DNA from: Echinarachnius parma
Taxonomy: Eukaryota > Echinodermata > Echinoidea > Clypeasteroida > Echinarachniidae
Assembly: GCA_037951105.1 (NCBI GenBank)
Contig: JBAMJV010008917.1
Location: 40,150-104,149, forward strand
Length of the DNA stretch: 64,000 nt
Reading direction: 5' to 3'
Position numbers and translations under genes: made by a program. Shown here one piece after another: positions 17,931-58,995 of the stretch (its first letter is position 1; each line of letters begins with the position of its first letter). The notes under the pieces were generated by a model. That model had not been told where the DNA came from and made no database searches. It was given only the letters and a program-made list of their open reading frames with translations.

Positions 17931-18284
17931 TCCCTTGTTAAATGTAAGTCACGAGATAGCGTGCATGTTATAAATATAAGTCACGATAGTGTGTAGATAC
18001 TTCATCATTTGATCAATTATAGTATACCAGTGGCGATAGGGACTTGTAATTATATTTGAATAAATATTGTTTTTATATTCTTTTTGTTCAAACTGAAATC
18101 TTTGTCCACACACATTGTGTTTTCATTTATTGTCTTGCATTATAATAAACAAAACAATCAACAACTCACCACTCTCGCATGACGCCATATATTTTGGCTA
18201 AACGAACCCACACATAATTAATTACCCGTCCTTGTCTCTAGAAGCTAACACCTTCCTGCAATTGCTATACCGCTCGGCTTGCAA

Positions 18285-19784
18285 ATGGCTTCTGGGGACA
18301 TTGACAATGGCGCCGCCCCCATACAAATCAGAAGTCAGGAAACTGACGAAGTTGGGAGTACTAGCGGAGGTCATTACAAATTTGGTGTCAGAAGTGGGAT
18401 ACATGCGATGAGTATGAGAAATAAGAAAAGTAAAATGGACAAAGACACGAAAGGTCACAAACCAGGAGAGATCGAAGATTCAGCTGATGAAACACAAAGT
18501 GAATTTTCAAACGCCACGAAAACTAGCTCGCAAAGTTCTAAATCAAAGAAAGTAGGACTTCAGACACGCTTGCTAGTTCAATTGACAAAACTTGTTGATC
18601 GAATGATGAAGAAAACGCGTAGGCACAAACACGTTAATTCTAGGGAAACCACAGAAGAACTATCCGATATTTCTTCTATGTCAGGAAGCGAGGTAGTACA
18701 AAGATTCTTGGACAATGAACACATGCCGCACAGCCAACAAATTGTCCCGAAACAGGAATCAAACGAATTCCGCCCCGAAACGATAGCGGCTGATAATGAA
18801 AGTCCAAGCTTCCATAAACAAACTCCCGTGCCTAACGAAAGCACAAGCTTTCACAAACAAAGTCCCGTTCCCAAAGAAGGCACAAGTTTCCGTGAACATG
18901 ACAAAGAAACACGCCCCGTACGACATAATCGTCCTACAGTCATAATGCCAGACAAATACGACGGAAAGTCAGATTGGACAGATTATATCTCCCACTTTGA
19001 ATCGTGTCAAGTTCTAAATGCTTGGACCAATGATCAAGCAGTACAAGTCCTAGCAGCTAGCCTTCGAGGTCCCGCACTTAGGTTGTTAAATGAACAAAAG
19101 AACACAAAATGGACCTACGAGGAAATGAAAATGGAATTGGCATTACGGTTCTCTTCTGTCAAACAATCGGAAGCGTATTTGTTAGAACTCCGAAATCGTA
19201 AGAGACGACAAAATGAGTCTCTTCGTGAACTAGGTCGTAACATTCGAGAACTAACTGCTCAAGCATACCCGAACTTTGATACGGACAGTATTGATACATT
19301 GGCAAAGCTCCACTTTGTTGATGCTATTCACAATTCGGAAATACGTGCCGGTATACTACATGCAAGAGCAGCCTCTCTTGATGAAGTTATTCAAGCCGCA
19401 ATAACCACAGAAACTTTCCTCCAAACTGAAGCACAACGAGTAGGATGGAAGCGAACCACCTACAACCGAATGGTAGAATCCAACTCTCCCACACCAACTG
19501 ATCCTCTAAACGTCACGAAAGAAATCATTAGTGCTGTTGAGGAAGCAGTTGAACGAAACATGAACCATAGAGTTCTCCAACGTCCGTCCCATGATCAAAA
19601 CACTGTGGTATGCTTCTATTGCGGTAAACACGGACACTTAGGGAGAAACTGCCGGAACAAACACGTAAACTTAAACCCATGTTTCAACGGTCGACATGCA
19701 GATCCCGAAACATGGAGACGCCGAGAAAAGTCCGTTGATAGATGGTCACCCCAACGACCCATGGGGCGATCAAATTATGAATAA
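18285..19784 (+). CDS. gag: Retrotransposon Gag polyprotein with CCHC zinc knuckle
   Basis: Structural protein that would package retrotransposon RNA into particles. From the ATG at 18285 it has 499 residues. Roughly 1-120 are polar and low in structure, with a basic stretch near 105-110. Residues about 216-385 form a retrotransposon Gag domain (KYDGKSDWTDYISHFE, then LAASLRGPALRLL). A zinc knuckle CFYCGKHGHLGRNC (C-x2-C-x4-H-x4-C) lies near 443-456, followed by a short basic tail. The first 31 codons lie inside the 5' LTR and the frame runs through the primer-binding site. The ATG at 18408, just after that site, is the more conventional start and would give 458 residues. The stop overlaps AATAAA. 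No pol frame follows. Confidence 0.85.
   Translation: MASGDIDNGAAPIQIRSQETDEVGSTSGGHYKFGVRSGIHAMSMRNKKSKMDKDTKGHKPGEIEDSADETQSEFSNATKTSSQSSKSKKVGLQTRLLVQLTKLVDRMMKKTRRHKHVNSRETTEELSDISSMSGSEVVQRFLDNEHMPHSQQIVPKQESNEFRPETIAADNESPSFHKQTPVPNESTSFHKQSPVPKEGTSFREHDKETRPVRHNRPTVIMPDKYDGKSDWTDYISHFESCQVLNAWTNDQAVQVLAASLRGPALRLLNEQKNTKWTYEEMKMELALRFSSVKQSEAYLLELRNRKRRQNESLRELGRNIRELTAQAYPNFDTDSIDTLAKLHFVDAIHNSEIRAGILHARAASLDEVIQAAITTETFLQTEAQRVGWKRTTYNRMVESNSPTPTDPLNVTKEIISAVEEAVERNMNHRVLQRPSHDQNTVVCFYCGKHGHLGRNCRNKHVNLNPCFNGRHADPETWRRREKSVDRWSPQRPMGRSNYE
18383..18400 (+). other. Primer-binding site, tRNA-Leu type
   Basis: TGGTGTCAGAAGTGGGAT, four bases after the LTR, is complementary to the 3' end including CCA of a eukaryotic tRNA-Leu (TCCCACTTCTGACACCA end). 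Copies recur at 29945 and 31363 in the tandem units. Confidence 0.8.
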
Positions 19785-25990: not shown

Positions 25991-26936
25991 GTTTTCCCTT
26001 GTTAAATGTAAGTCACGAGATAGCGTGCATGTTATAAATATAAGTCACGATAGTGTGTAGATACTTCATCATTTGATCAATTATAGTATACCAGTGGCGA
26101 TAGGGACTTGTAATTATATTTGAATAAATATTGTTTTTATATTCTTTTTGTTCAAACTGAAATCTTTGTCCACACACATTGTGTTTTCATTTATTGTCTT
26201 GCATTATAATAAACAAAACAATCAACAACTCACCACTCTCGCATGACGCCATATATTTTGGCTAAACGAACCCACACATAATTAATTACCCGTCCTTGGC
26301 CCCGTTGCAGAAAGAGTTACGATCGATCGTAAGTCCCAAAATTGATCGTAAATGGCCTTACTTACGACCAATCCAAGATTTACGATCAATCCTGTTGCAG
26401 AAAGAAGTTACGATCGATATTAACCGTAACTATTGGTCGTAAGTTTTAAAATTGATCGTAACTTTAACAGGTGATTTTTCTTTGGCGTAACTTACGATTA
26501 ATTATTCACAAGGCACAAACATGGGCAAACATACCAACATACACACTCATTCAAGCACATAAATACAGATAAAACTCATCCTCATAAAACAGATAATCAT
26601 AGTGTTACACACTGATTCATAATTTCATACATACATTAGATCATACTAAGGTTTTACTATATTAAATCGTAAAGGCCTGTATTGAAACAAAGGGTAATGC
26701 TTTACTTGACTGAGAATAAAAAAGGCCAACAAAGTGCATGTATTTTTATTCTTCAAATTTTTAATCCAAAAAGAGTACACAACACATGACTTTCGATTCA
26801 TTCCATCAAATAGAATGTTATTATTTTGTAGTGAAATGAATACATTCTCTAGTGACTATGCCAGTCCTTTACTCCTTTTCCCCCAATCAATAATAATTGT
26901 GGCTACTTAAATGTAGCGCACGCATAGGCGTACCCA

Positions 26937-26970
<34 letters not shown>

Positions 26971-26997
26971 GGGGGTTTAACCCCCCCCCCCCCCCCT
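26937..26997. repeat. 31-base G tract facing a C tract
   Basis: 'gcataggcgtacccag' precedes about 31 G, then a short AT spacer and about 18 C. The G and C runs could pair. Confidence 0.8.
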
Positions 26998-27164
26998 TTG
27001 ACCGAAAATGCTTTTTTTTTTTCTTTTTCAAATTTTAAATGGTCTCGAGACAAAATTTAAGCGGTCGAGTGGTCTTGGCCTCGAAAACTGCAAAAAAGCG
27101 TAGTCTCAGCTTCGAAAATGGTTGATCTCCGCATTGAAAATTGTCTACGACTTCCTGGCTACTC

Positions 27165-27400
27165 CCCCCCCCCCCCCCCCCCCCACGGCGCTCCCGTTGC
27201 ATCACCCCAGTCAGCTCAAAAAGTGCACATTGTCCACTTCCTGGGGAGGATTCCAGCTAGGCAACCTCCAAGGTGCAGACATGGCTACGTAACTCCTTTC
27301 CATCCTTCCGGGTGACATACCTTGGGCTCGAATTTGGGACCTCACATTGGAAGGCACACGCTCTACCAATCTTGCCACACCGTCTTGCTCTGTCATCCTT
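27165..27400 (-). mobile_element. Probable tRNA-derived SINE
   Basis: On the minus strand from about 27400: 'gtgtggcaagattggtagag' resembles a tRNA 5' half with A box, and 'ggtcccaaattcgagccc' about 35 bases on resembles a B box. A tRNA-unrelated body then runs to a C tract at 27165-27184. No tail is clear. Confidence 0.4.
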
Positions 27401-28431
27401 CTCCAGCTTGGGCGGATCCCGTCTGTCGTCGTCTTCTATCTGCTAGCTAGCTCCTCAAATCCAGGCGTCTACTGCATACACAAGAGGCTGCTTGATGAGC
27501 TGAAATATAATACAAATAACATGAAAATAAAAAATAGAGTATACTTAGTCTTGTTACCTAAACTATATTCAATGACACACAGTTTCATCATTCAGATTAA
27601 TAATTTTGTTCCCACAGTCAATGTCTTGGACATACCTATCACCTTGAAATGTCACGGTACAAGCTGTCACAGCTCTAGATAAAATACTAATTAAAACCAT
27701 TTGTTTTGGTCACATCACAGGCTATCCAATCCATGCTCACCTGCAAACTGGAATGTTCAAGGGATAAGTAATCAATTACATTTTATAAACCAGCATTCTA
27801 TTTTAAACGAGCCCAAAGAGACGAATTAAGTCATGTACATGTTAGCCCGTTGACTTTGTAAAGAATGCCATACTAATAAAACATTTTAATTTTGAGCAAC
27901 AAAATCATTTTAAAAATTATTTTAGCAAGTGACCTACTTAACCCATAATTATTTCATGCTAACTGAACTACAAACTAACGTCATAATAATCAAAGAAAAA
28001 TAAAAGCTTCAATATTTGTTTAAAGTAGCATTTTGTGTAAGATTGTCAAGTTCTCACCTATCCCATTGCTGTGGCTTGGCCTGGGGGCAACACCAGTGGC
28101 TCGACAGCTTACTCCAAGGCAAATGGCTCCAGCATGTCCTCCTCTCTCTTTCGCTTTCCTCCTTTCATCAGCCTGTCCATTCTGGTGATTTCTTCTGTGA
28201 TTATTCTGCCTCTCTCCCACTTGTTGTTATGACTATATGGCTGTATACCACTGTGGAATTGTACAGTAAAGAATGCAAATTACCACATAAATTTGAACAC
28301 ATGACTGAGACTGCATCAGTCCATGGACTCACAGGAGCTAGGAGGCTAATTTTGTAATTTGGTCCTCCATAATATTTAATGTTATACGATATTACCTGCC
28401 AGTAAATTCTCATGCATTGAGAACATACACA

Positions 28432-28975
28432 TTTTGGCGCTAATGTGGTTGCGTACCCTTTGTTTTTTCTTTCTTTTCCAACGCCTTATTTGTCTTTAAA
28501 CTCAACTAAATTAGTTTTACTCACTGCGCTTTGTCCTTATCCCTCAATGGTCTGTTGTAATATTTTGGTCAACATTTAAGCCCTTTTTTGGCAACTTTAA
28601 TCGATGGCTTTGAAAGCGTCGCGGCACCAGCTTCGCGGTCGCAAAAATCGAAATAGCAGGACTTCACGGGCGCAGGAGTAGTACTCTCTCCACGTTCATG
28701 TCACCGGTAGCTAGCGGCATAGCTGCTTGCGAAGTCCCGCTATTTCAATTTTTGCGACCGCAAAGCTAGTGCCGTTGCGGCAAAAACCCATTGATTAAAG
28801 TCGCCCAAAAGAGGGCTTAAATGTTGACCAAAATATTACAACAGACCATCGAGAGATAAGGTCAAAGTGCAGTGAGTAATATAATATAATACAAACTAAT
28901 TTAGTTGAGTTTAAAGACGAATGAAGCGTTGGAAAAAACCTAAAAAAGGAGTACGAAACCACATAAGCGCCCAAA
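28432..28975. mobile_element. Foldback element with ~250 bp arms inside the Harbinger-like element
   Basis: The left arm ('tttggcgctaatgtggtt', 'gtcaacatttaagccc', 'ttgcgaccgc' inverse) pairs with the right arm ending 'aaccacataagcgcccaaa'. The best pairing is CTGTTGTAATATTTTGGTCA at 28552 with its inverse near 28840. No ORF. Confidence 0.65.
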
Positions 28976-29846
28976 TTTCATCTTTGCATTGCCCTTGATG
29001 GCCATGGCATGTATACCTTTTTTTAATTTTTGTATTTCAGTTTTGCTTTAAAAGTTTAACTTATTTTTTACACATATTCATAAGACAATTTGTCATACAT
29101 GTATTTGGCAAATATTTGAAAGCTAGACCATATATCAAATACAACATCTACAAATAATTAATTAAAACAGGTTTCATAGATGTCTCTGATGTTCAGGTAC
29201 AATTTTTCCTATTCCCATATAAAATGAGTTCACAAATCACAGAAACAGTTTCGAGTTTGGAAATGGTATATGGATACTATGTACTAACATGGATTTCAAC
29301 ACATGGGGTAACATTGTAATAATATACGTTGCGAATCTGCATTCGAGATACCATTATGCTAGCATAATGACGATTCTATACAAAATGAGCAACACTTAAG
29401 ATCATTACATAGCAACAACATAATAAGGTAAGCTACATATCAATGCCGATTAATTTATCTTTGTAAAAGGTGTAAAATGTGTACTTACCGTTCACCACTC
29501 GAAGCAGGACTGCATGAAAAATTAGATTTGTCTGCCGCGTCTCATATCATAACAACAAGCCAAATTCCGCGGGAAATACGCTGAATTTCGCGGTAATGGG
29601 TCGTTGTCTTTATCCCAGCCGTGTTGAATTATGTTTTAAATGGCATTTTCTAAAGAAATCGAGCGCAAGTCAAATGCACTTACGGTTGAATTTAAACCTC
29701 CTTTCTGCAACGGACATTTGAAATTGATATAAACTTACGACTCAATAAATCGACTGTAAAGTTACGACCGATATTCTTTCTGCAACGGGGCCCTTGTCTC
29801 TAGAAGCTAACACCTTCCTGCAATTGCTATACCGCTCGGCTTGCAA

Positions 29847-31076
29847 ATGGCTTCTGGGGACATTGACAATGGCGCCGCCCCCATACAAATCAGAAGTCAG
29901 GAAACTGACGAAGTTGGGAGTACTAGCGGAGGTCATTACAAATTTGGTGTCAGAAGTGGGATACATGCGATGAGTATGAGAAATAAGAAAAGTAAAATGG
30001 ACAAAGACACGAAAGGTCACAAACCAGGAGAGATCGAAGATTCAGCTGATGAAACACCAAGTGAATTTTCAAACGCCACGAAAACTAGCTCGCAAAGTTC
30101 TAAATCAAAGAAAGTAGGACTTCAGACACGCTTGCTAGTTCAATTGACAAAACTTGTTGATCGAATGATGAAGAAAACGCGTAGGCACAGACACGTTAAT
30201 TCTAGGGAAACCACAGAAGAACTATCCGATATTTCTTCTATGTCAGGAAGCGAGGTAGTACAAAGATTCTTGGACAATGAACACATGCCGCACAGCCAAC
30301 AAATTGTCCCGAAACAGGAATCAAACGAATTCCGCCCCGAAACGATAGCGGCTGATAATGAAAGTCCAAGCTTCCATAAACAAACTCCCGTGCCTAACGA
30401 AAGCACAAGCTTTCACAAACAAAGTCCCGTTCCCAAAGAAGGCACAAGTTTCCGTGAACATGACAAAGAAACACGCCCCGTACGACATAATCGTCCTACA
30501 GTCATAATGCCAGACAAATACGACGGAAAGTCAGATTGGACAGATTATATCTCCCACTTTGAATCGTGTCAAGTTCTAAATGCTTGGACCAATGATCAAG
30601 CAGTACAAGTCCTAGCAGCTAGCCTTCGAGGTCCCGCACTTAGGTTGTTAAATGAACAAAAGAACACAAAATGGACCTACGAGGAAATGAAAATGGAATT
30701 GGCATTACGGTTCTCTTCTGTCAAACAATCGGAAGCGTATTTGTTAGAACTCCGAAATCGTAAGAGACGACAAAATGAGTCTCTTCGTGAACTAGGTCGT
30801 AACATTCGAGAACTAACTGCTCAAGCATACCCGAACTTTGATACGGACAGTATTGATACATTGGCAAAGCTCCACTTTGTTGATGCTATTCACAATTCGG
30901 AAATACGTGCCGGTATACTACATGCAAGAGAAGCCTCTCTTGATGAAGTTATTCAAGCCGCAATAACCACAGAAACTTTCCTCCAAACTGAAGCACAACG
31001 AGTAGGATGGAAGCGAACCACCTACAACCGAATGGTAGAATCCAACTCTCCCACACCACCTTTTTGTTCAAACTGA
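29847..31076 (+). pseudogene. gag: Gag copy 2, 3'-truncated
   Basis: Almost identical to 18285-19500 but follows the 3' LTR, carries its own primer-binding site (29945) and stops after SPTP. There the sequence jumps back to LTR text ('ctttttgttcaaactg') at 31059. The zinc knuckle is lost. It shares three replacements with copy 3 (Q to P, K to R, A to E) relative to copy 1. Confidence 0.8.
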
Positions 31077-31264
31077 AATCTTTGTCCACACACATTGTGT
31101 TTTCATTTATTGTCTTGCATTATAATAAACAAAACAATCAACAACTCACCACTCTCGCATGACGCCATATATTTTGGCTAAACGAACCCACACATAATTA
31201 ATTACCCGTCCTTGTCTCTAGAAGCTAACACCTTCCTGCAATTGCTATACCGCTCGGCTTGCAA

Positions 31265-32493
31265 ATGGCTTCTGGGGACATTGACAATGGCGCCGCCCCC
31301 ATACAAATCAGAAGTCAGGAAACTGACGAAGTTGGGAGTACTAGCGGAGGTCATTACAAATTTGGTGTCAGAAGTGGGATACATGCGATGAGTATGAGAA
31401 ATAAGAAAAGTAAAATGGACAAAGACACGAAAGGTCACAAACCAGGAGAGATCGAAGATTCAGCTGATGAAACACCAAGTGAATTTTCAAACGCCACGAA
31501 ACTAGCTCGCAAAGTTCTAAATCAAAGAAAGTAGGACTTCAGACACGCTTGCTAGTTCAATTGACAAAACTTGTTGATCGAATGATGAAGAAAACGCGTA
31601 GGCACAGACACGTTAATTCTAGGGAAACCACAGAAGAACTATCCGATATTTCTTCTATGTCAGGAAGCGAGGTAGTACAAAGATTCTTGGACAATGAACA
31701 CATGCCGCACAGCCAACAAATTGTCCCGAAACAGGAATCAAACGAATTCCGCCCCGAAACGATAGCGGCTGATAATGAAAGTCCAAGCTTCCATAAACAA
31801 ACTCCCGTGCCTAACGAAAGCACAAGCTTTCACAAACAAAGTCCCGTTCCCAAAGAAGGCACAAGTTTCCGTGAACATGACAAAGAAACACGCCCCGTAC
31901 GACATAATCGTCCTACAGTCATAATGCCAGACAAATACGACGGAAAGTCAGATTGGACAGATTATATCTCCCACTTTGAATCGTGTCAAGTTCTAAATGC
32001 TTGGACCAATGATCAAGCAGTACAAGTCCTAGCAGCTAGCCTTCGAGGTCCCGCACTTAGGTTGTTAAATGAACAAAAGAACACAAAATGGACCTACGAG
32101 GAAATGAAAATGGAATTGGCATTACGGTTCTCTTCTGTCAAACAATCGGAAGCGTATTTGTTAGAACTCCGAAATCGTAAGAGACGACAAAATGAGTCTC
32201 TTCGTGAACTAGGTCGTAACATTCGAGAACTAACTGCTCAAGCATACCCGAACTTTGATACGGACAGTATTGATACATTGGCAAAGCTCCACTTTGTTGA
32301 TGCTATTCACAATTCGGAAATACGTGCCGGTATACTACATGCAAGAGAAGCCTCTCTTGATGAAGTTATTCAAGCCGCAATAACCACAGAAACTTTCCTC
32401 CAAACTGAAGCACAACGAGTAGGATGGAAGCGAACCACCTACAACCGAATGGTAGAATCCAACTCTCCCACACCACCTTTTTGTTCAAACTGA
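31265..32493 (+). pseudogene. gag: Gag copy 3, frameshifted and 3'-truncated
   Basis: Tandem copy of the previous 1418 bp unit with the same 3' breakpoint. One A is missing in an A run at about 31500 (period 1417), so the frame breaks into 31265-31534 and 31549-32493. The primer-binding site is at 31363-31380. Confidence 0.8.
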
Positions 32494-40140: not shown

Positions 40141-42751
40141 TAATTATGTGACCGAGCTTTATGGGAATATGGAGAAGAAAAGTTTTAAAAGTCGGTGGGA
40201 CAGTGGGGCAGGAAGTTAGTTTCTGTTCCACAAAATTTTATTTTGATTTTATATAGTCGCAGTACAGGCACGGCATGGGCTTGGGACAAGGGGAAGAAAT
40301 ATCTCCGAACCGCCCGCGAGAGGGTACTGCTCGGGAGAGAAACCTTCATACCTGCTGGAAGTATTAGGCTATGTCAGACTCTGTTAGCAATACATTGTTG
40401 GAGGCGCAGTTAAAGATAAGTCGTCGGTCAGCATTGTCCACGCGCAGAGGGCTGATTTTTGTGTGTGTTTATTTTGGTTTTCTCTGGTCAGGTTTGAACC
40501 AGAGATGTTTTGGGCGAGTGGCGTCCTGTTACCTAGAAATTGCAGTCTGGGTTGTTAATGTGTCCATTCAAATGCCGCGGGGGAGTTTGTTATGATATGG
40601 AAAATGAAAGTGAGCTCGGTCATAATAATGTAGAATAAAATGCGGGATGATTTTTGTTGAACGTAGGTGTACATTAGGGTGGCTTGTTATTTTGAGGATA
40701 ACATTGCTATGTATTGGATAGAAGCAGGTGAAATATATAAAGGACCCTGAATTTAAAAAGGTATAGACAAAATGAGATCCAGAAGTAAAACTGGAATGTA
40801 AAAGGGAATATATATAAGCCTTTGAAATATATTAGGCCCTAAATTGGTGAAATGGTTTTAATACATGATCGTAAATAGAATAATGAATTAAGAACTTATT
40901 TCTTTGCTCGAATTTGTGATTTGAAGGATTCCTGTGTTTTGATAGAGAAGAATGAGGAGGTGAAGTTAAACAGGAATCAATGAGAATTTCAACGTCAAGA
41001 AATTCAATAATCTTGGAGGGACCGCAAATTTGCCAATTGGAATTATTGTAGGATAATATTTTGTGTCCTACAAATAAAAAGGAAAAGGAAAGCATTTATC
41101 CTTTACTTCTTTATTCGTATTTTCAATGAAGAATAACCCTTCCTCAGAGCCTGGGAGTGGTAGTACCTTTGATCACTTCGTGTGGTTTCTGGTCCACACC
41201 ATGTTCTGCCCCTTTCCCCTTAGATGTGGGAGAGGTAGTACCTTTAACTGTTCATTGTAAAATCAGTTACTGGTCCACACCATGTCGATCTAAATTGTAT
41301 CCAGATTGTTTTTGGCGGCCAAATCTCATTATCTTTATTCTTCATTATATTTCAAAATTAAAATATCCTCTTGGTTTTTATTGCGGTCCTTGCCAATCAA
41401 CGGAGTCAACGATAACACTAGTCATCGTCAAGGCTAGTGCCGGAGGAATCAACGACACAAATCTATGGTCCAAGAGAAGCCGGATAGAAGCTACAATCAA
41501 CCCTGGAACCCTGCAACCCCTGGACGGACGAATCTCCATCGATGCTAAAGACAATCGCGATTAATAATAGGCTAGAAATAACAACAAATAATTTTCGAAA
41601 TAGGAATGTCAAAAACAAGAATGAAAATTAATATTCGTTATATTTTAAAAGGAGACTTTTAAGATTTGAGCTTTTGAAGATAAATTTTGAGATGATTTGA
41701 AGATATAGAGAAGGACAGCAAGTTTTTAATTTAAATTAATTAAATTTATTTTTTTTGGTTTCCTTTTCGTGCGGATAATGTATTTAATTTTTGGATTGCG
41801 GAGAGCTGAATAAGGCTGAATAGTGAAATAAAAATAGCAGTTAGCAATTGCTGTTTGATTTCGGGTTTATTTTGGTAGACGATTGTTTTGAAACTTCCAA
41901 TAATATTGAAAATATTGGTTAGTTTGTTATATGGAGTGACGTTTTTAGTTTTGTATAAGTGAGTAGAGTTAGGGAAATTGCTCATATTTGGGAATTCAGA
42001 AATGAAATTGTTAGCAAAATAAAATAGAAGTTTTTATTTTGTTATAGTTTGTACTTGTATTTGATAAAAATTTAGAGAAGAAAGCCTCTATGTCCAAATT
42101 CCTCTGCAATTCAGCTGTATATAATATGTTGAAGGGTATAAACACAGAAACTGACAAAACCATTTCCATTTTAGTTTGAGATGATTTTAATAGGGCCTGC
42201 GACAAGGCAGAGAAAGTAATAGGACATGTTTTGGTCGAAGCTTTAGAATTGATTCTTGATATGCAATGGCATGTGTATCATTTGGAAAAGTTGAAGTGTT
42301 TTTGTTTTATGAATAGCGACACAAAATAATGGCGATTGTCAGTTTATGCAGATAGACCTTTCCTTTGTAAAATATAATTGCATGCCGTTTTGTGTTATTA
42401 TAATCCATGTATACTGCTTTGTAAATTGCTAAAATATGTAACATTGGGGGGAAAGTAGGGATGGTAAGAATTAAGTTTCGTAACCAAACGTTTGAGTAGC
42501 AGGAGTTAGTTTTGTGTAAAAGTTTTGTTGTTGTATTGTTTGGTAAAAGAAGGGTTGGGATGTCGATTTAGTTTTGTAAAATGAAGTGCAAACTGACCAA
42601 ATTCAGTTTAGTTTCGAAGTACAGTAACGTAGTATTTGCATTTTGATCAAGTGGCAGTTATATTGTAAGTTTTGAAAACTTAAAGTGGGATAACAAGTTG
42701 AAAACTTGCCCTGAAACTCCAGGAGGAGTTTGATATTTAAGGAGGGGGTGG
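40141..42751 (+). other. 3' internal region of the outer LTR element
   Basis: No long ORF. 41157-41564 stays open for 135 codons and ends with a coding-looking tail (SRIEATINPGTLQPLDGR), possibly a pol or gag relic. A 100 bp unit with 'ctggtccacaccatgt' is duplicated at 41155-41290. It ends at the purine tract before 42752. Confidence 0.4.
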
Positions 42752-48145: not shown

Positions 48146-48363
48146 TGTCAGTATGAAATTAAAACAATAAATTGATTTCTTTAATCCGTTTTTAATCCTG
48201 AAATCAGTGGTACAAAACACTTCTTAATTACGAGTCTACATTATCATTAAAAACTTATGATATATCATTCATTCATGATTGAATGGTATAAAAATATCAA
48301 CGGACAACCCCAAAGTTAAAAGGTTGATTTCAGTAAAACAGCATTAAACGCGAGAGGGCGCCG

Positions 48364-50609
48364 CACAGTGGGCCAGGTGTGAGCAAAAGTGCGCCAAAAT
48401 AGTGACTTGGTCATGGAAATGAAATTGCTTTTTTTCATGTTTTAAGCAAAGATTACAACCTGTAGAACATCTCCGAACAATATTTCTTCTCGATATTTAT
48501 TTTAAGTGGGTCATTTGTGACCTCACACCACAAAACGACCGTTATGTCGCTGTGGTAGTTTCTCTTTTATTTGCTAAACTAGTCAAATTTTGTTCAAAAT
48601 ATGAGATTTAGAATTTTGTATTTCCTGAAAAACCATATCTTAATCTAACTTCTGGAAAATTTTGAGCGTCAGAAATCATGTTTAAATATTGATTTTCCAT
48701 TTAATAAATGTGATCTTAGTACAGCCCATGAATAGGCACATATCTTTTAAGCGGCCCGTTTCTCCCTTATCTTAAAAATGCATCAGCTATATACCATGTC
48801 TTTGGCATTAATTTGGAAAGGGTTTGCTTAGTCCAAATATGACAAATTATATACCATTTTAAAGGTAATGACTTCTATTTTAATGTTATTTGAAAATCAG
48901 CAAAATCATTTTTCCCGACTTATTGGTCGTTTTGTCGTGTAAGGTCACATTTGTCTTCACAAAGTCCAGAAATGTTGATTTTAGGGAACACAATGTGTTA
49001 AATGCAATATTGTTGTTTTGTCATGATATTTGCCAAACGGCTTGCTTAATCGACTTAAAATTTGAAATGCTTGTTTTATAATAGTTATTCTAAGTAATCA
49101 TACATTTTAAAGCCAAACTATTAGTTATGTCGGAATTTATGTTTAGTAGAATCAAACAAATAATGGGAGAAAATCGATGTTTTTTTTTCATGCGCAAAAA
49201 TGGTCAACATTGCTGTCGATTGCTGCGCTAAAAATATCATGATTGCATTCCTTACAATGTATGCTTTACTTTGATACCAAATTTGTCTGCCACCATCTGC
49301 CACCTTATGAGTAAGAAGCGGTTTTCGCCCTTTTTTTTTGCCGAAATCGCCCTTTTTTGCGAAAGAGCGCGCCGTGCGCTCATACCAACGAACGTTGAGG
49401 GCGTAAACAACAATACTAAACACGTTCGTTGGGATCATACCATTGAAGTATATCACGTTAGTACTTCAATGGCTCATACATAGGCAAACTACATAAGATA
49501 CAGTTGTACGCTTTTTTCTTTGTTGACACAAGTAGCATCTATAAGAAGTCCTCTGACAATTTGTCTAAGATGATGGGACAAGCATATGGATTGTATGAAA
49601 GTAGTCAATGGTAGAAGAGAGCTCAAAAATGGAAAGAAAATCAAAGCGAAATTCAAGATAGCGGGGGAGAGAGATAGCGAAAGATAGAAATAGTTGGAGA
49701 AAGAGTGAGGGGAGAGAGGGGGAGAGACATTTGGAAATGCTCCAACTGTGTTTCTTAGGTCCAGATACCCCTTATAATTATGTTAATAATAATAATTATT
49801 ATTATTATAAGTTCCACTAATCAGTGTAATTTCAATCTGTCTATACGTTACAATGAATATATCCCTTGTCCAATCAGAAAACAGTATTTTGATGACGTCA
49901 GAGAAATTTATAAATGCTCCAATTGTGTTTCTTAGGTCCAGAAACCCCTTATAAGTTCCACAAATCAATGTAATATGAATCTGTCTATGTTTTACAATGA
50001 ATATTTGCTTTGTCCAATCAGAAAACAGTATTTTGATGACGTCAGATAAATTTGTAAATGCTCCAATTGTGTTTCTTAGGTACAGAAACCCCTTATAAGT
50101 TCCACTAATCAGTGTAATTTAAATCTGTCTATACGTTACAATGAATAGATCCCTTGTCCAATCAGAAAACAGTATTTTGATAACGTCAGAGAAATTTGAA
50201 AATGCTCCAACTGTGTTTCTTAGGTCCAGAAACCCCTTATAAGTTGCACTAATCAGTGTAATATGAATGTGTCTATGTGTAACAATGAATATTTGCCTTG
50301 TCCAATCAGAAAACAGTATTTTGATGACGTCAGAGAAATTAGAAAATGCTCCAACTGTGTTTCTTAGGTCCAGAAACCCCTTATAAGTTGCACTAATCAG
50401 TGTAATCTGAACCTGTCTATGTGTTACAATGAATATTTGCCTTGTCCAATCAGAGAACGGTATTTTGATGACGTCACACGGACTTGAAAATACTCCCATC
50501 GAATTCTATGGGTCTGAAAACCCTTAGTTCCTTTAAACTGGAACTTCATTAACCTTCTTCAATGAGTAATTAATTTTGGCACACTTTGAAACGGTTCTGG
50601 CCCACTGTG
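48364..50609. mobile_element. Transib-type DNA transposon with RSS-like CACAGTG ends, non-autonomous
   Basis: Both ends start CACAGTGGGCCAG, inward at 48364 and inverted at 50609, with a second conserved block CAAAGTGTGCCAAAAT (CAAAAGTGCGCCAAAAT at the left) about 20 bases in. The flanks are perfect 5 bp duplications CGCCG at 48359-48363 and 50610-50614. A CACWRTG heptamer with a GC-rich 5 bp CGNCG duplication is the hallmark of Transib, the superfamily related to the RAG1 recombinase. The 2246 bp interior lacks a recognisable transposase. It holds an inner inverted repeat pair (48513 and 48950, CACAAAACGACC), two short hairpins at 49383-49474 and a 144 bp satellite. Confidence 0.8.
49735..50500. 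repeat. 144 bp tandem repeat, about 5.2 copies
   Basis: Starts of 'aaatgctccaa' at 49735, 49912, 50056, 50200, 50344 and 50488. The first unit has a 33 bp AAT-rich insertion. Each unit contains 'ttgatgacgtcag', 'cttgtccaatcag' and 'agaaaccccttataag'. 144 is divisible by three, so a 126-codon minus-strand frame (50119-50499) stays open. It is probably not a gene. Confidence 0.85.
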
Positions 50610-50614
50610 CGCCG

Positions 50615-51502
50615 TTCAGTCACCGGATAGTTCATAGAGAGATTACCAAATAACAAACTTGAAAGCCACTAACTTAAAATAAAGGTAAATTGTCAAGAAT
50701 ATGTAGGCTCTTTATCTATTTCCGAAATTATCGAATTGAGAGACCCACATGTATTCCAATTGGGCATACGAAATTACGCATGGATTTTAAAGGTGCCTTT
50801 GAACCAATTTAAATGAAACAGTTCATTTTGTCTTTAAAATCACGTGCTTTTTCAAATCATGTTACAGTTATTCGTCATTACATCACAAAGAAGTCATGTT
50901 TTGAACAAGTGTTGAAGCTTTCTCTTTCTCAACCAAAACTCCACTTGACCCAGCTGTAAGTTAGCACAACTGCAAGTCGCGATCGGTGCTCTTTATTATC
51001 TATAATTACCAAGATTATACAATAATTATTCAAATGACTTCGTATACATTAAAATGAAAAGCATAATTTATATAAAACTAATTTATTTGTTCATCAAATA
51101 CATTGGGAGGGTCTTACGAAATGAATATCGTGTTATTTGTTCTTTGATCTTCTGGGGTAAAGCTATCCCTCTTGTATATATGGTGTACAAATCTGACAAT
51201 AATCTAATAATAAGTGCTATAAATTATATTAGTGGAATAATATTAGTATTTTGACGAGAGACGACCATGTCACTCATCGAGTTAAAATAAGACATTTGCT
51301 CCCGACTCACAAATTAGTATGCATGAAAATTTAGCTCTCGATCTAAATCGTACACAAATTTACCTGGTCATAAAAACATTCCCTGACTCCTGCATGGGAT
51401 TTTATAATTATACAAATTGTATTTTAGTCATATTCTGTATTTTCAGTCATGTTATTAAATTAACTATACAAAACATGCTTCGAGAAAAAAAATAAAAAAA
51501 GA
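50615..51502. other. Unassigned AT-rich sequence
   Basis: No repeat or gene recognised. Confidence 0.3.
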
Positions 51503-55655: not shown

Positions 55656-56778
55656 TTAAGTAATACTTGTTGTCTGCTTGAGCGTGCCTTTGTTTCTTCG
55701 TGACGGTCTCGAACACGTGTTTGACGATTGTCTAACGACTGATTGTATTTACTGAATGCGCTGGTGTTGGCCTGGATGTTTGGAAGACTTCAATGCCAAT
55801 ATGTGGCTCGGACATATACGGGGAGCTTAGTAGCTGGTAATCCAGGAATGTAATCCAAGCAGGCGGTATTCTGGCGCTTGTTGCAAGAAAGGGTCCTATC
55901 TTTAGGACGTCCTAAATGTCACGTGACTGTCATGTGACTACGTACACTTAGGACAGTTGTCCTAACTTCGCGAACGGAACAAACCCCATCATCGGTCAAA
56001 TGTAAACATGTTTTATGGAAAGCTTGCGTTATTTCAATCAGTGAGAAGGGGACACGATATAAAATGAACTAAACTATGTATGATTACATTTGGAATAATA
56101 AATCAAATATGAGTTACCGAATGGGGTAGGGAATGAATCCCCTTATATCGAGGGAAGTGTAATGTACAAATTTCACCCCCCCCCCCCCACCCCATAATAA
56201 CGAATCGGATTGCGAACTTGAATATAATGGTAAATATATTTTTCGTTTGTATGTATCGGTTATACTTGTAAGTGCCCAGCCCCAATCTGATTAAAGGGTT
56301 TTATAATCGCAACTACACGATGCTTAAATATATATGGCTTATATTTAGTACTTACTTTACGATATAATTTTTTTTAATTTTTTTATTTATTTAATTTACA
56401 TCATATTCCATAGACGTCGATCTGTAATCAATACATATTGTTCAAGTAATACATCCTAATTCCCTTTGCCTCCTCATCAAATGTAAGGCCTTTCTGGTGC
56501 CCAGCCCCTCCTCCGATTCTGGAAAAATTACAGCTACGCCACTAGCCTATTTGGGAAATGAATTTAACTTTCAAGACGAAATATATATATACGTTAGTAT
56601 CGCTGATGTTTTCTTATGGTATCGGGAACGAAACGTATATCGTGAACAAGCAGTTTCCATACTTTATAGAATGGTCTCGATAAAGAAGACCTCTCTTGAA
56701 TATAAATATTGTTCAATTCAAACATATAGGGAAACTGACCAAGAATATATTGTGATTAAAAGTGAGCAAAGAAAAATG

Positions 56779-56851
56779 GGATTCCAACGGGATTCGAACC
56801 CGAGACCTCCGGATTGCTGGACCGGTGCTCTACCGACTGAGCTATAGAAAA
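56779..56851 (-). tRNA. tRNA-like unit, anticodon position AGC (Ala-like), probable pseudogene
   Basis: Cloverleaf as in the plus-strand copies: D arm GCTC/GAGC and T loop TTCGAAT. The anticodon loop is CCAGCAA, so the invariant T33 is C. The outer two acceptor pairs do not form. A and B boxes are intact. Confidence 0.55.
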
Positions 56852-57182
56852 CCCTACGACGGCGTTCTTCCCAGAAACCCCTTAATTCAACTTTGCTCAA
56901 GTATAGTCAGAAGCTTTATAAACCTGACATAAACCCGAAGCGGATTAAAATCAACTTGGGGATAAATGCGAGGGATCGCCGAAGCGATACAGCTTGTTTG
57001 AATTAATTATTATATATGTTTGAATTAATTATTATAAAAAGCTGTATCGCTTCGGCGATCCCTCGCATTTATCCCCAAGTTGATTTTAATCCGCTTCGGG
57101 TTTATGTCAGGTTTATAAAGCTTCTGACTATACTTGAGCAAAGTTGAATTAAGGGGTTTCTGGGAAGAACGCCGTCGTAGGG

Positions 57183-57255
57183 TTTTCTATAGCTCAGTCG
57201 GTAGAGCACCGGTCTAGCAATCCGGAGGTCTCGGGTTCGAATCCCGTTGGAATCC
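57183..57255 (+). tRNA. tRNA-like unit, anticodon AGC (Ala-like)
   Basis: 73 bases. D arm GCTC-AGTCGGTA-GAGC, anticodon arm CCGG(T)-CTAGCAA-(T)CCGG with anticodon AGC, T arm CGGG-TTCGAAT-CCCG. A box TAGCTCAGTCGG and B box GGTTCGAATCC are perfect, and TTTTT at 57258-57262 is a Pol III terminator. Acceptor pairs 1-2 and the pairs 31-39 and 49-65 are mismatched, which argues for a SINE-type or pseudo-tRNA. Confidence 0.6.
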
Positions 57256-57475
57256 CATTTTTGTTTGCTCACTTTTAATCACAATATATTCTTGGTCAGT
57301 TTCCCTATATGTTTGAATTAATTATTATAAAAAGCTGTATCGCTTCGGCGATCCCTCGCATTTATCCCCAAGTTGATTTTAATCCGCTTCGGGTTTATGT
57401 CAGGTTTATAAAGCTTCTGACTATACTTGAGCAAAGTTGAATTAAGGGGTTTCTGGGAAGAACGCCGTCGTAGGG

Positions 57476-57548
57476 TTTTCTATAGCTCAGTCGGTAGAGC
57501 ACCGGTCTAGCAATCCGGAGGTCTCGGATTCGAATCCCGTTGGAATCC
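57476..57548 (+). tRNA. tRNA-like unit, anticodon AGC, B box mutated
   Basis: Same as the copy 293 bp upstream except G53 of the T arm is A (GGATTCGAATCC context). This breaks the universally conserved closing pair and weakens the B box. Confidence 0.5.
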
Positions 57549-57675
57549 CATTTTTCTTTGCTCACTTTTAATCACAATATATTCTTGGTCAGTTTCCCTA
57601 TATGTTTGAATTAATTATTATAAAAAGCTGTATCGCTTCGGCGATCCCTCGCATTTATCCCCAAGTTGATTTTAA

Positions 57676-58096
57676 AGGGGACCACCAGGCAAAGGACAAC
57701 ACATTATTATATGTTTTGGTACCATTTTCTGATATCAAATATATACCCAACATTTTGCAAAGGGTTGTGTAATTCATAAACAAAGCAATTAATTTCCACC
57801 ACTTACGGAACCACGACTATCTTTTGGTTCCACACGGGCCAGGCATTTGCGAGTGCGCCAATGCAATACACGCGTACGTCAATAGAATCCCGGATGATTC
57901 GTTCGGTCTGCACAGAGCGCCGCTGGCCGCTAGTCTGCGCATTCAGACCGCATGGCCGCATGGCTGAGAATGGTGATGCGTTTTCCAATTATATATTTTT
58001 TCTGAAAACCTATTTTTGTGAACTTATTGAAGGAATGGAATACTAAAGATGTTACCTTTCTATAATTAGATTATTATTTGGGGGTAGTGGTACCCT
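57676..58096. mobile_element. TTAA-target MITE, AGGGGACCAC family, inserted in the tRNA array
   Basis: AGGGGACCACC at the left and GTGGTACCCT at the right are flanked by TTAA (57672-57675; 58097-58104 is TTAATTAA). The uninterrupted unit reads 'gattttaatccgc' at 57370, so the insertion is certain. No ORF. Confidence 0.75.
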
Positions 58097-58198
58097 TTAA
58101 TTAATCCGCTTCGGGTTTATGTCAGGTTTATAAAGCTTCTGACTATACTTGAGCAAAGTTGAATTAAGGGGTTTCTGGGAAGAACGCCGTCGTAGGGT

Positions 58199-58271
58199 TT
58201 TTTTATAGCTCAGTCGGTAGAGCACCGGTCTAGCAATCCGGAGGTCTCGGGTTCGAATCCCGTTGGAATCC
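58199..58271 (+). tRNA. tRNA-like unit, anticodon AGC, acceptor stem mutated
   Basis: Fourth copy. The 5' acceptor is TTTTTTA, losing one more pair. A and B boxes and the anticodon AGC are intact, and ATTTTT follows as terminator. Confidence 0.5.
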
Positions 58272-58995
58272 CATTTTTCTTTGCTCACTTTTAATCACAA
58301 TAAATATTGTTCATTACTTATTTCAAAGGTAAAAGGTCTTCCTTTTGCCAGATCATCTACTTTTCAGGCAAATGTAATATTTATTGATAAAGTGTAGCTG
58401 ATCAGATAAGTTAATTGTAGCGAAAAAATATATAATATTTTTCGCATGTATAATAGGGTCTGTTTGATGAAGATACTAATTAATGGTGTCTTTAAATAGG
58501 CACAAGTAGCAACATAAGCAAATCTTTTCCGAATAATATATTTCAAGTTTTTTTTGTGTGTTCGCTTTCAGCTACCCGTTTGCTTTGCATGTGAACTGAA
58601 CATTGTAATATGTTCTTGTGTATGTTTTATATCATGTGTCATTCTAACGCACCTATAGACCAGCAATAGGCTCCTATGCTGATAATTATTTTACAGATTA
58701 TACATTAGGTCCATGGCAAAGGCTAATTTCGACTTAGGAGCCTTTCTTGCAATAGTTTAGGATAACTGTCCTATGTACGTAGTCATATGACAATCACGTG
58801 ACATTTAGGACGTCCTAAAGATAGGACCCTTTCTAGCAACAAGCCCCAGCTCTCCAGACGGGGACAGTAGATCGGATAACAGTCAGCCTCAGAGATGGCT
58901 CGATCATATATCCTAGTCGACGGACAGTCCTGGCATGTCCGAATCTACTTTTCAGATGTTTTCAGCTGAATCATTTTGAACCCGAACATGCTTAA

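Follow-up and report, generated by a model that had tools for sequence, protein, structure and literature searches.

A probable non-autonomous Transib-type element with CACAGTG tips and a CGCCG target duplication in Echinarachnius parma

Introduction

Ends that start with CAC, combined with a 5-bp duplication of the target site, have been described as common to Transib transposons, RAG-like transposons and the RAG recombinase (PMC7204232). The terminal inverted repeats (TIRs) of fly Transib elements are reported to be 40–45 bp long (PMC10299278), and Transib TIRs are described as mostly symmetric, with spacers of 20–22 bp, the 12/23 asymmetric ends of Transib N1–N3 of Anopheles gambiae being given in the same source (PMC8355894). 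In the bat star, TransibSU-1 has 13-bp identical TIRs and was called analogous to known Transibs (PMC4411706).

The target sites reported for these systems are diverse. For transib insertions in moths the motif given is CGNCG (PMC4735498), and the target in a structure of the mouse RAG strand-transfer complex is CGCCG (PMC11844651). In flies, the preferred target is reported to be CCANTGG for both hopper and transib2, and 532 of 533 hopper insertions and 7 of 7 transib2 insertions carried a 5-bp duplication. The targets given for Hztransib and TransibSU-2 are GCTCG and CCAGG (PMC4411706 for the latter). CGNCG is thus no universal Transib rule, since hopper, transib2, Hztransib and TransibSU-2 use other targets.

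Here we describe an element found in a 64-kb stretch of the genome of Echinarachnius parma (contig JBAMJV010008917.1), referred to below as the window, which an earlier note on this DNA had taken to be of the Transib type.

Results and discussion

The element and its ends

The element occupies positions 48364–50609 of the window (2246 bp, 34.8% G+C), and its existence was confirmed by sequence reading and by inverted-repeat analysis. Both termini are exactly CACAGTG, as the earlier note had stated (48364–48370 on the + strand and 50603–50609 on the − strand), and these heptamers form the outer part of a perfect inverted repeat of 13 bp, CACAGTGGGCCAG. When the window was searched for CACAGTGGGCCAG with up to two mismatches, three matches were obtained, namely the two tips, both exact, and a site at 40199 with two mismatches. 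CGCCG is found directly outside each tip, and the length of this duplication is fixed at 5 bp by the adjacent bases, G at 48358 and T at 50615. The features of the two ends are as follows.

48359–48363, no strand: target site duplication, left, CGCCG (direct reading, flank comparison)
48364–48376, + strand: left TIR block 1, CACAGTGGGCCAG, starting with the RSS-type heptamer CACAGTG (13/13 against the right end)
48377–48385, + strand: left inter-block spacer, 9 bases (1/9 in common with the right end)
48386–48400, + strand: left TIR block 2, AAAGTGCGCCAAAAT (14/15 in register against the right end)
50573–50587, − strand: right TIR block 2, AAAGTGTGCCAAAAT on the − strand (end alignment)
50588–50596, − strand: right inter-block spacer, 9 bases (end alignment)
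50597–50609, − strand: right TIR block 1, CACAGTGGGCCAG on the − strand (end alignment, motif search)
50610–50614, no strand: target site duplication, right, CGCCG (direct reading, flank comparison)

Comparison of one end with the other gave 13 matches in positions 1–13, one in the nine positions 14–22, 14 in the 15 positions 23–37 and 11 in the 43 positions 38–80. Each end consists of 13 bp, 9 bp and 15 bp, so that the spacing is symmetric (9/9 spacers). A second shared block had been foreseen by the earlier note and does exist, with its start displaced from the proposed 12–13 bases: AAAGTGYGCCAAAAT begins 15 bases past the heptamer at both ends, the length difference being zero. The match of 14/15 in register was equalled in none of 200000 single-base shuffles of positions 14–60. 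Against a 28-position motif built from these same ends both ends score 28/28, and the next best score in the window is 18; ten first-order Markov sequences used as a control for this motif had peak scores of 18–20. CACAGTG taken alone is unremarkable, with 12 occurrences in the window against 5.5 expected.

The duplication CGCCG fits the CGNCG pattern of moths, as had also been claimed, and within the window CGNCG is present at 92 of 63996 positions. Joining the flanks gives 50 bp around the insertion site with 54% G+C, a value matched or exceeded by 8% of window 50-mers.

Coding content

The longest open stretch within the element comprises 128 codons and lies within a tandem array described below. 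No RAG1 or Transib name was obtained from Pfam for the ten ORFs of the element and all six frames (X at stops), or from the PDB for its six frames (X at stops) at E up to 1; three of the PDB searches returned 1, 5 and 2 unrelated chains at that threshold and the other three returned none. Convergent RAG1L and RAG2L genes were likewise absent from the six frames in both databases. Two Pfam matches, to DUF2534 (8e-5, 23.2 bits with a cut-off of 22.4, 24 residues) and to a clamp_Gag1-like family (0.00037, under its own cut-off, 34 residues), were judged spurious, both being in frames that run through the 144-bp tandem array. Across the window, a Pfam scan of 77 ORFs (70 of the 145 ORFs of at least 75 aa and 7 shorter ones within the element) yielded 14 families at E up to 0.05, none of them named RAG1 or Transib. 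As far as tested, the element is non-coding, and the earlier statement that it lacks a transposase holds with the reserve that a very decayed or very divergent piece could escape the Pfam and PDB searches. A missing transposase does not exclude a non-autonomous Transib, because non-autonomous members are by definition without one.

Other copies and relatives

No second copy of the element was found within the 64-kb window by end-motif and similarity searches. The joined flanks gave no convincing match across the junction that would mark a paralogous empty site elsewhere in the window; the alignments obtained (54 columns at 72%, E values of 0.069 and 0.24) involved the left flank only. When longer flanks were joined, the strong matches covered positions no higher than 382 of 600 and ended 218 bp to the left of the element. 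In a prokaryote collection the 18-base end pattern occurred at three loci, in Flavobacterium, Saprospiraceae and Acidobacteriales, none having an exact or duplication-matched partner end in the forms tested. These loci were dropped because 257 Gb of sequence should by chance contain about 7 matches and partner ends were lacking. In viral contigs neither the end pattern nor a pattern from the internal repeat was found, and plasmid and phage searches gave no match to the element. A literature text search did not return these particular ends, the letters of CACAGTGGGCCAG being met only in unrelated papers, and gave no match for the phrase "non-autonomous Transib".

Likeness to recombination signals

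The heptamer CACAGTG is the same as that of the V(D)J recombination signal sequence (RSS), whereas these signals pair as 12/23 and the element has neither a convincing nonamer nor a 12/23 pair. Nonamers were scored against the consensus ACAAAAACC (PMC8289069). The left end scored 5/9 at spacings 11, 12, 22 and 23, and the right end 3/9 at 12 and 5/9 at 22 and 23, its best score being 6/9 at a spacer of 1. A score of at least 5/9 is reached at 7.6% of window positions, so none of these scores is evidence for a nonamer. The 12-RSS geometry suggested by the earlier note did not hold up: GCAAAAGTG does lie 12 bases past the heptamer at the left end, but the same place at the right end is occupied by TTCAAAGTG (3/9), the left score is within background and the spacing is symmetric. 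Nor was a nonamer found at 12 from one heptamer and at 23 from the other.

Both ends have CCAAAAT in common, 23 bases past the heptamer. Should any resemblance to an RSS be looked for, this motif is preferable to the one at 12 bases, and the resulting arrangement would be 23/23 rather than 12/23. It is very unlikely that the ends form a symmetric 23-type pair (heptamer, 23 bases, CCAAAAT) read by an undescribed RAG1/Transib transposase of this animal through a contact of the nonamer-binding type; were it so, a transposon would carry one half of the RSS layout in the form of a matched pair.

Identity of the element

The element is most probably a non-autonomous member of the Transib superfamily of DNA transposons that was moved in trans. 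This agrees with the type proposed in the earlier note and is supported by the CACAGTG tips, the 13-bp perfect repeat and the 5-bp GC-rich CGCCG duplication. Of the features that characterize Transib, the element has TIRs with an RSS-like CAC heptamer, present at both tips within 13 perfect bases, and, in a single insertion, a 5-bp GC-rich duplication of the kind known as CGNCG in moths; a RAG1-core-type transposase was not found in its six frames (Pfam, PDB). We know of no other superfamily that combines a 5-bp duplication with CAC ends. Against this assignment stand the single copy, with no empty site, autonomous partner or second copy seen within the 64-kb window, the chance occurrence of 6-bp CAC pairs with 5-bp flanks in shuffled sequence, and the fact that CGNCG is not universal.

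Fly Transib1–4 and Hztransib, as they are described, resemble the element in several respects: the tips are heptamers of the CAC type, the duplications measure 5 bp, the TIRs are about 40 bp long (about 37 in the element) and the spacing is symmetric, a likeness judged from their descriptions and, in sequence, from the heptamer. They differ in that they encode a transposase or derive from an element encoding one, while the present element shows none. In the names Transib N1–N3 the letter N stands for non-autonomous. These Anopheles gambiae elements have Transib ends and, like the element, are probably without transposase, but their ends are described as 12/23 and those of the element are symmetric.

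One alternative, a chance inverted-repeat pair with a chance 5-bp match and no element at all, was examined by counting pairs with identical 5-bp flanks in the window and in 20 shuffles of it. Short pairs are common in shuffles (mean 69 for 7+5, 20 for 8+5 and 1.3 for 10+5, the largest count for the last being 4), and at the level of a 6-bp repeat starting with CAC the window has one pair, which is the element, where shuffles average 1.7 (largest 4), so this level is not significant. The window holds six 10+5 pairs and five 13+5 pairs, two of the latter AT-rich (window count only). Chance is nevertheless an extremely improbable explanation, for the 13 perfect bases are accompanied in register by the 14/15 block, never reproduced in the 200000 shuffles, and the runner-up in the window reaches 18/28. 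The statistical weight is carried by the second block and the 13 perfect bases, and not by the heptamer or the 6+5 pair.

Descent from a RAG-like (RAG1L-RAG2L) transposon, instead of a plain Transib, has more in its favour and is still unlikely. Non-autonomous RAG-like elements described from the pearl oyster and several deuterostomes share with the element a TIR pair, 5-bp duplications and the lack of an intact transposase gene (PMC7204232), and RAG-like TIRs may be bipartite, with 13 + 10 bp in AanRAGL (PMC9435367). The sequences themselves disagree, however: the protostome RAG-like consensus CACTWMCAAACKTYKBB (PMC7204232) departs from the element after CAC, with 4 agreements counted by eye in the first 13 positions and with AAA at 8–10 where the element has GGC, the ends reported for ProtoRAG are CACTATG and not CACAGTG, and the AanRAGL spacing is given as asymmetric, 4/13 (PMC9435367), against 9/9 here. 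End sequence and symmetric spacing would thus weakly favour Transib proper over a RAG-like origin. Another or an undescribed superfamily, with CACAGTG ends and 5-bp duplications by chance, is highly improbable. Protein evidence for any superfamily is absent from the element, and two further elements of the window, 1108–2276 and 26299–29791, combine inverted repeats and 5-bp duplications (GGGCG and CCTTG) with quite different ends; against it, an exact heptamer, a CGNCG duplication and a bipartite end coincide in the one element.

For the non-autonomous Transib a route of movement may be proposed. A Transib transposase, related to the RAG1 core and encoded elsewhere in the genome, would pair both ends and nick at the heptamer tip, leaving hairpins on the flanks and blunt element ends, and these would be joined, with a 5-bp stagger, to a GC-rich CGNCG site, repair of which would give the CGCCG duplication. 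The inner 15-bp block may serve as a second transposase contact. Hairpin and blunt-end chemistry has been reported for Hztransib (PMC6941560) and is carried over to the element by analogy.

The element represents one likely helper-dependent transposon with an exact RSS heptamer and a CGCCG target, and its ends are usable as bait for an autonomous Transib or RAG1-like partner in the host genome. Alone it leaves the account of the origin of V(D)J recombination unchanged, as ends of the Transib type, GC-rich 5-bp targets and relatives without genes have been described before. With gene-less RAG-like elements and the Anopheles Transib N1–N3 in print, the kind is already known and the element itself is new.

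Interior of the element

Five features were recorded in the interior.

48516–48549, + strand: left arm (34 nt) of an internal inverted repeat, with 85% complementarity to 48916–48949 (repeat search)
48916–48949, − strand: internal inverted repeat, right arm (repeat search)
49340–49500, + strand: three consecutive hairpins (folds better than 200/200 shuffles, z −4.57, DNA parameters)
49640–49740, + strand: purine-rich (GA) tract (direct reading)
49805–50476, + strand: tandem array of 4.7 copies of a 144-bp unit, with 91% matches (repeat search)

The inverted repeat, hairpins, purine tract and array had no match elsewhere in the window (E up to 0.01), and the tandem repeats and hairpins need have no role in transposition. 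The array holds four exact TGACGTCA and five CCAATCAG; the latter is present in each 144-bp unit, five times on the + strand, and nowhere else on the + strand of the window. Four units also contain TGACGTCA, a combination that, to judge from the motifs, resembles a CCAAT plus CRE promoter module.

Other features of the window

The inverted-repeat element at 1108–2276 measures 1169 bp and has a 60-bp perfect TIR that starts with TGTTGCACCACAAATTGTCG, and that at 26299–29791 measures 3493 bp and has a 17-bp perfect TIR that starts with GCCCCGTTGCAGAAAGA; two ORFs inside the latter and one on the opposite strand gave no Pfam match. AGAGGGCGC occurs 8 times in the window against 0.06 expected, its sites including 48353–48361 and 1100–1107. 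Six of the AGAGGGCG sites were placed by eye in two repeat contexts, and the duplications of the Transib-like element and of the element at 1108 each overlap a further AGAGGGCG site, which may reflect either a preferred target or a fragment of an old repeat. Between 5100 and 6300 lie long, diverged repeats whose units measure some 300–350 bp, with TATGCAAATTTATGCAAATT and TGACGTCA.

On the − strand, positions 1–282 hold what remains of the HTH domain of a P-element transposase (Pfam PF12017, 1.4e-5). Near-identical gag-like ORFs occupy 18249–19781, 29811–31073 and 31229–32490, the first with a zinc knuckle, and two copies are separated by about 1417 bp, an arrangement that may reflect a recent duplication or an effect of assembly. 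The stretch 56778–58273 contains four genes for tRNA-Ala(AGC), of which three are direct and one is inverted, partly in 293-bp repeat units.
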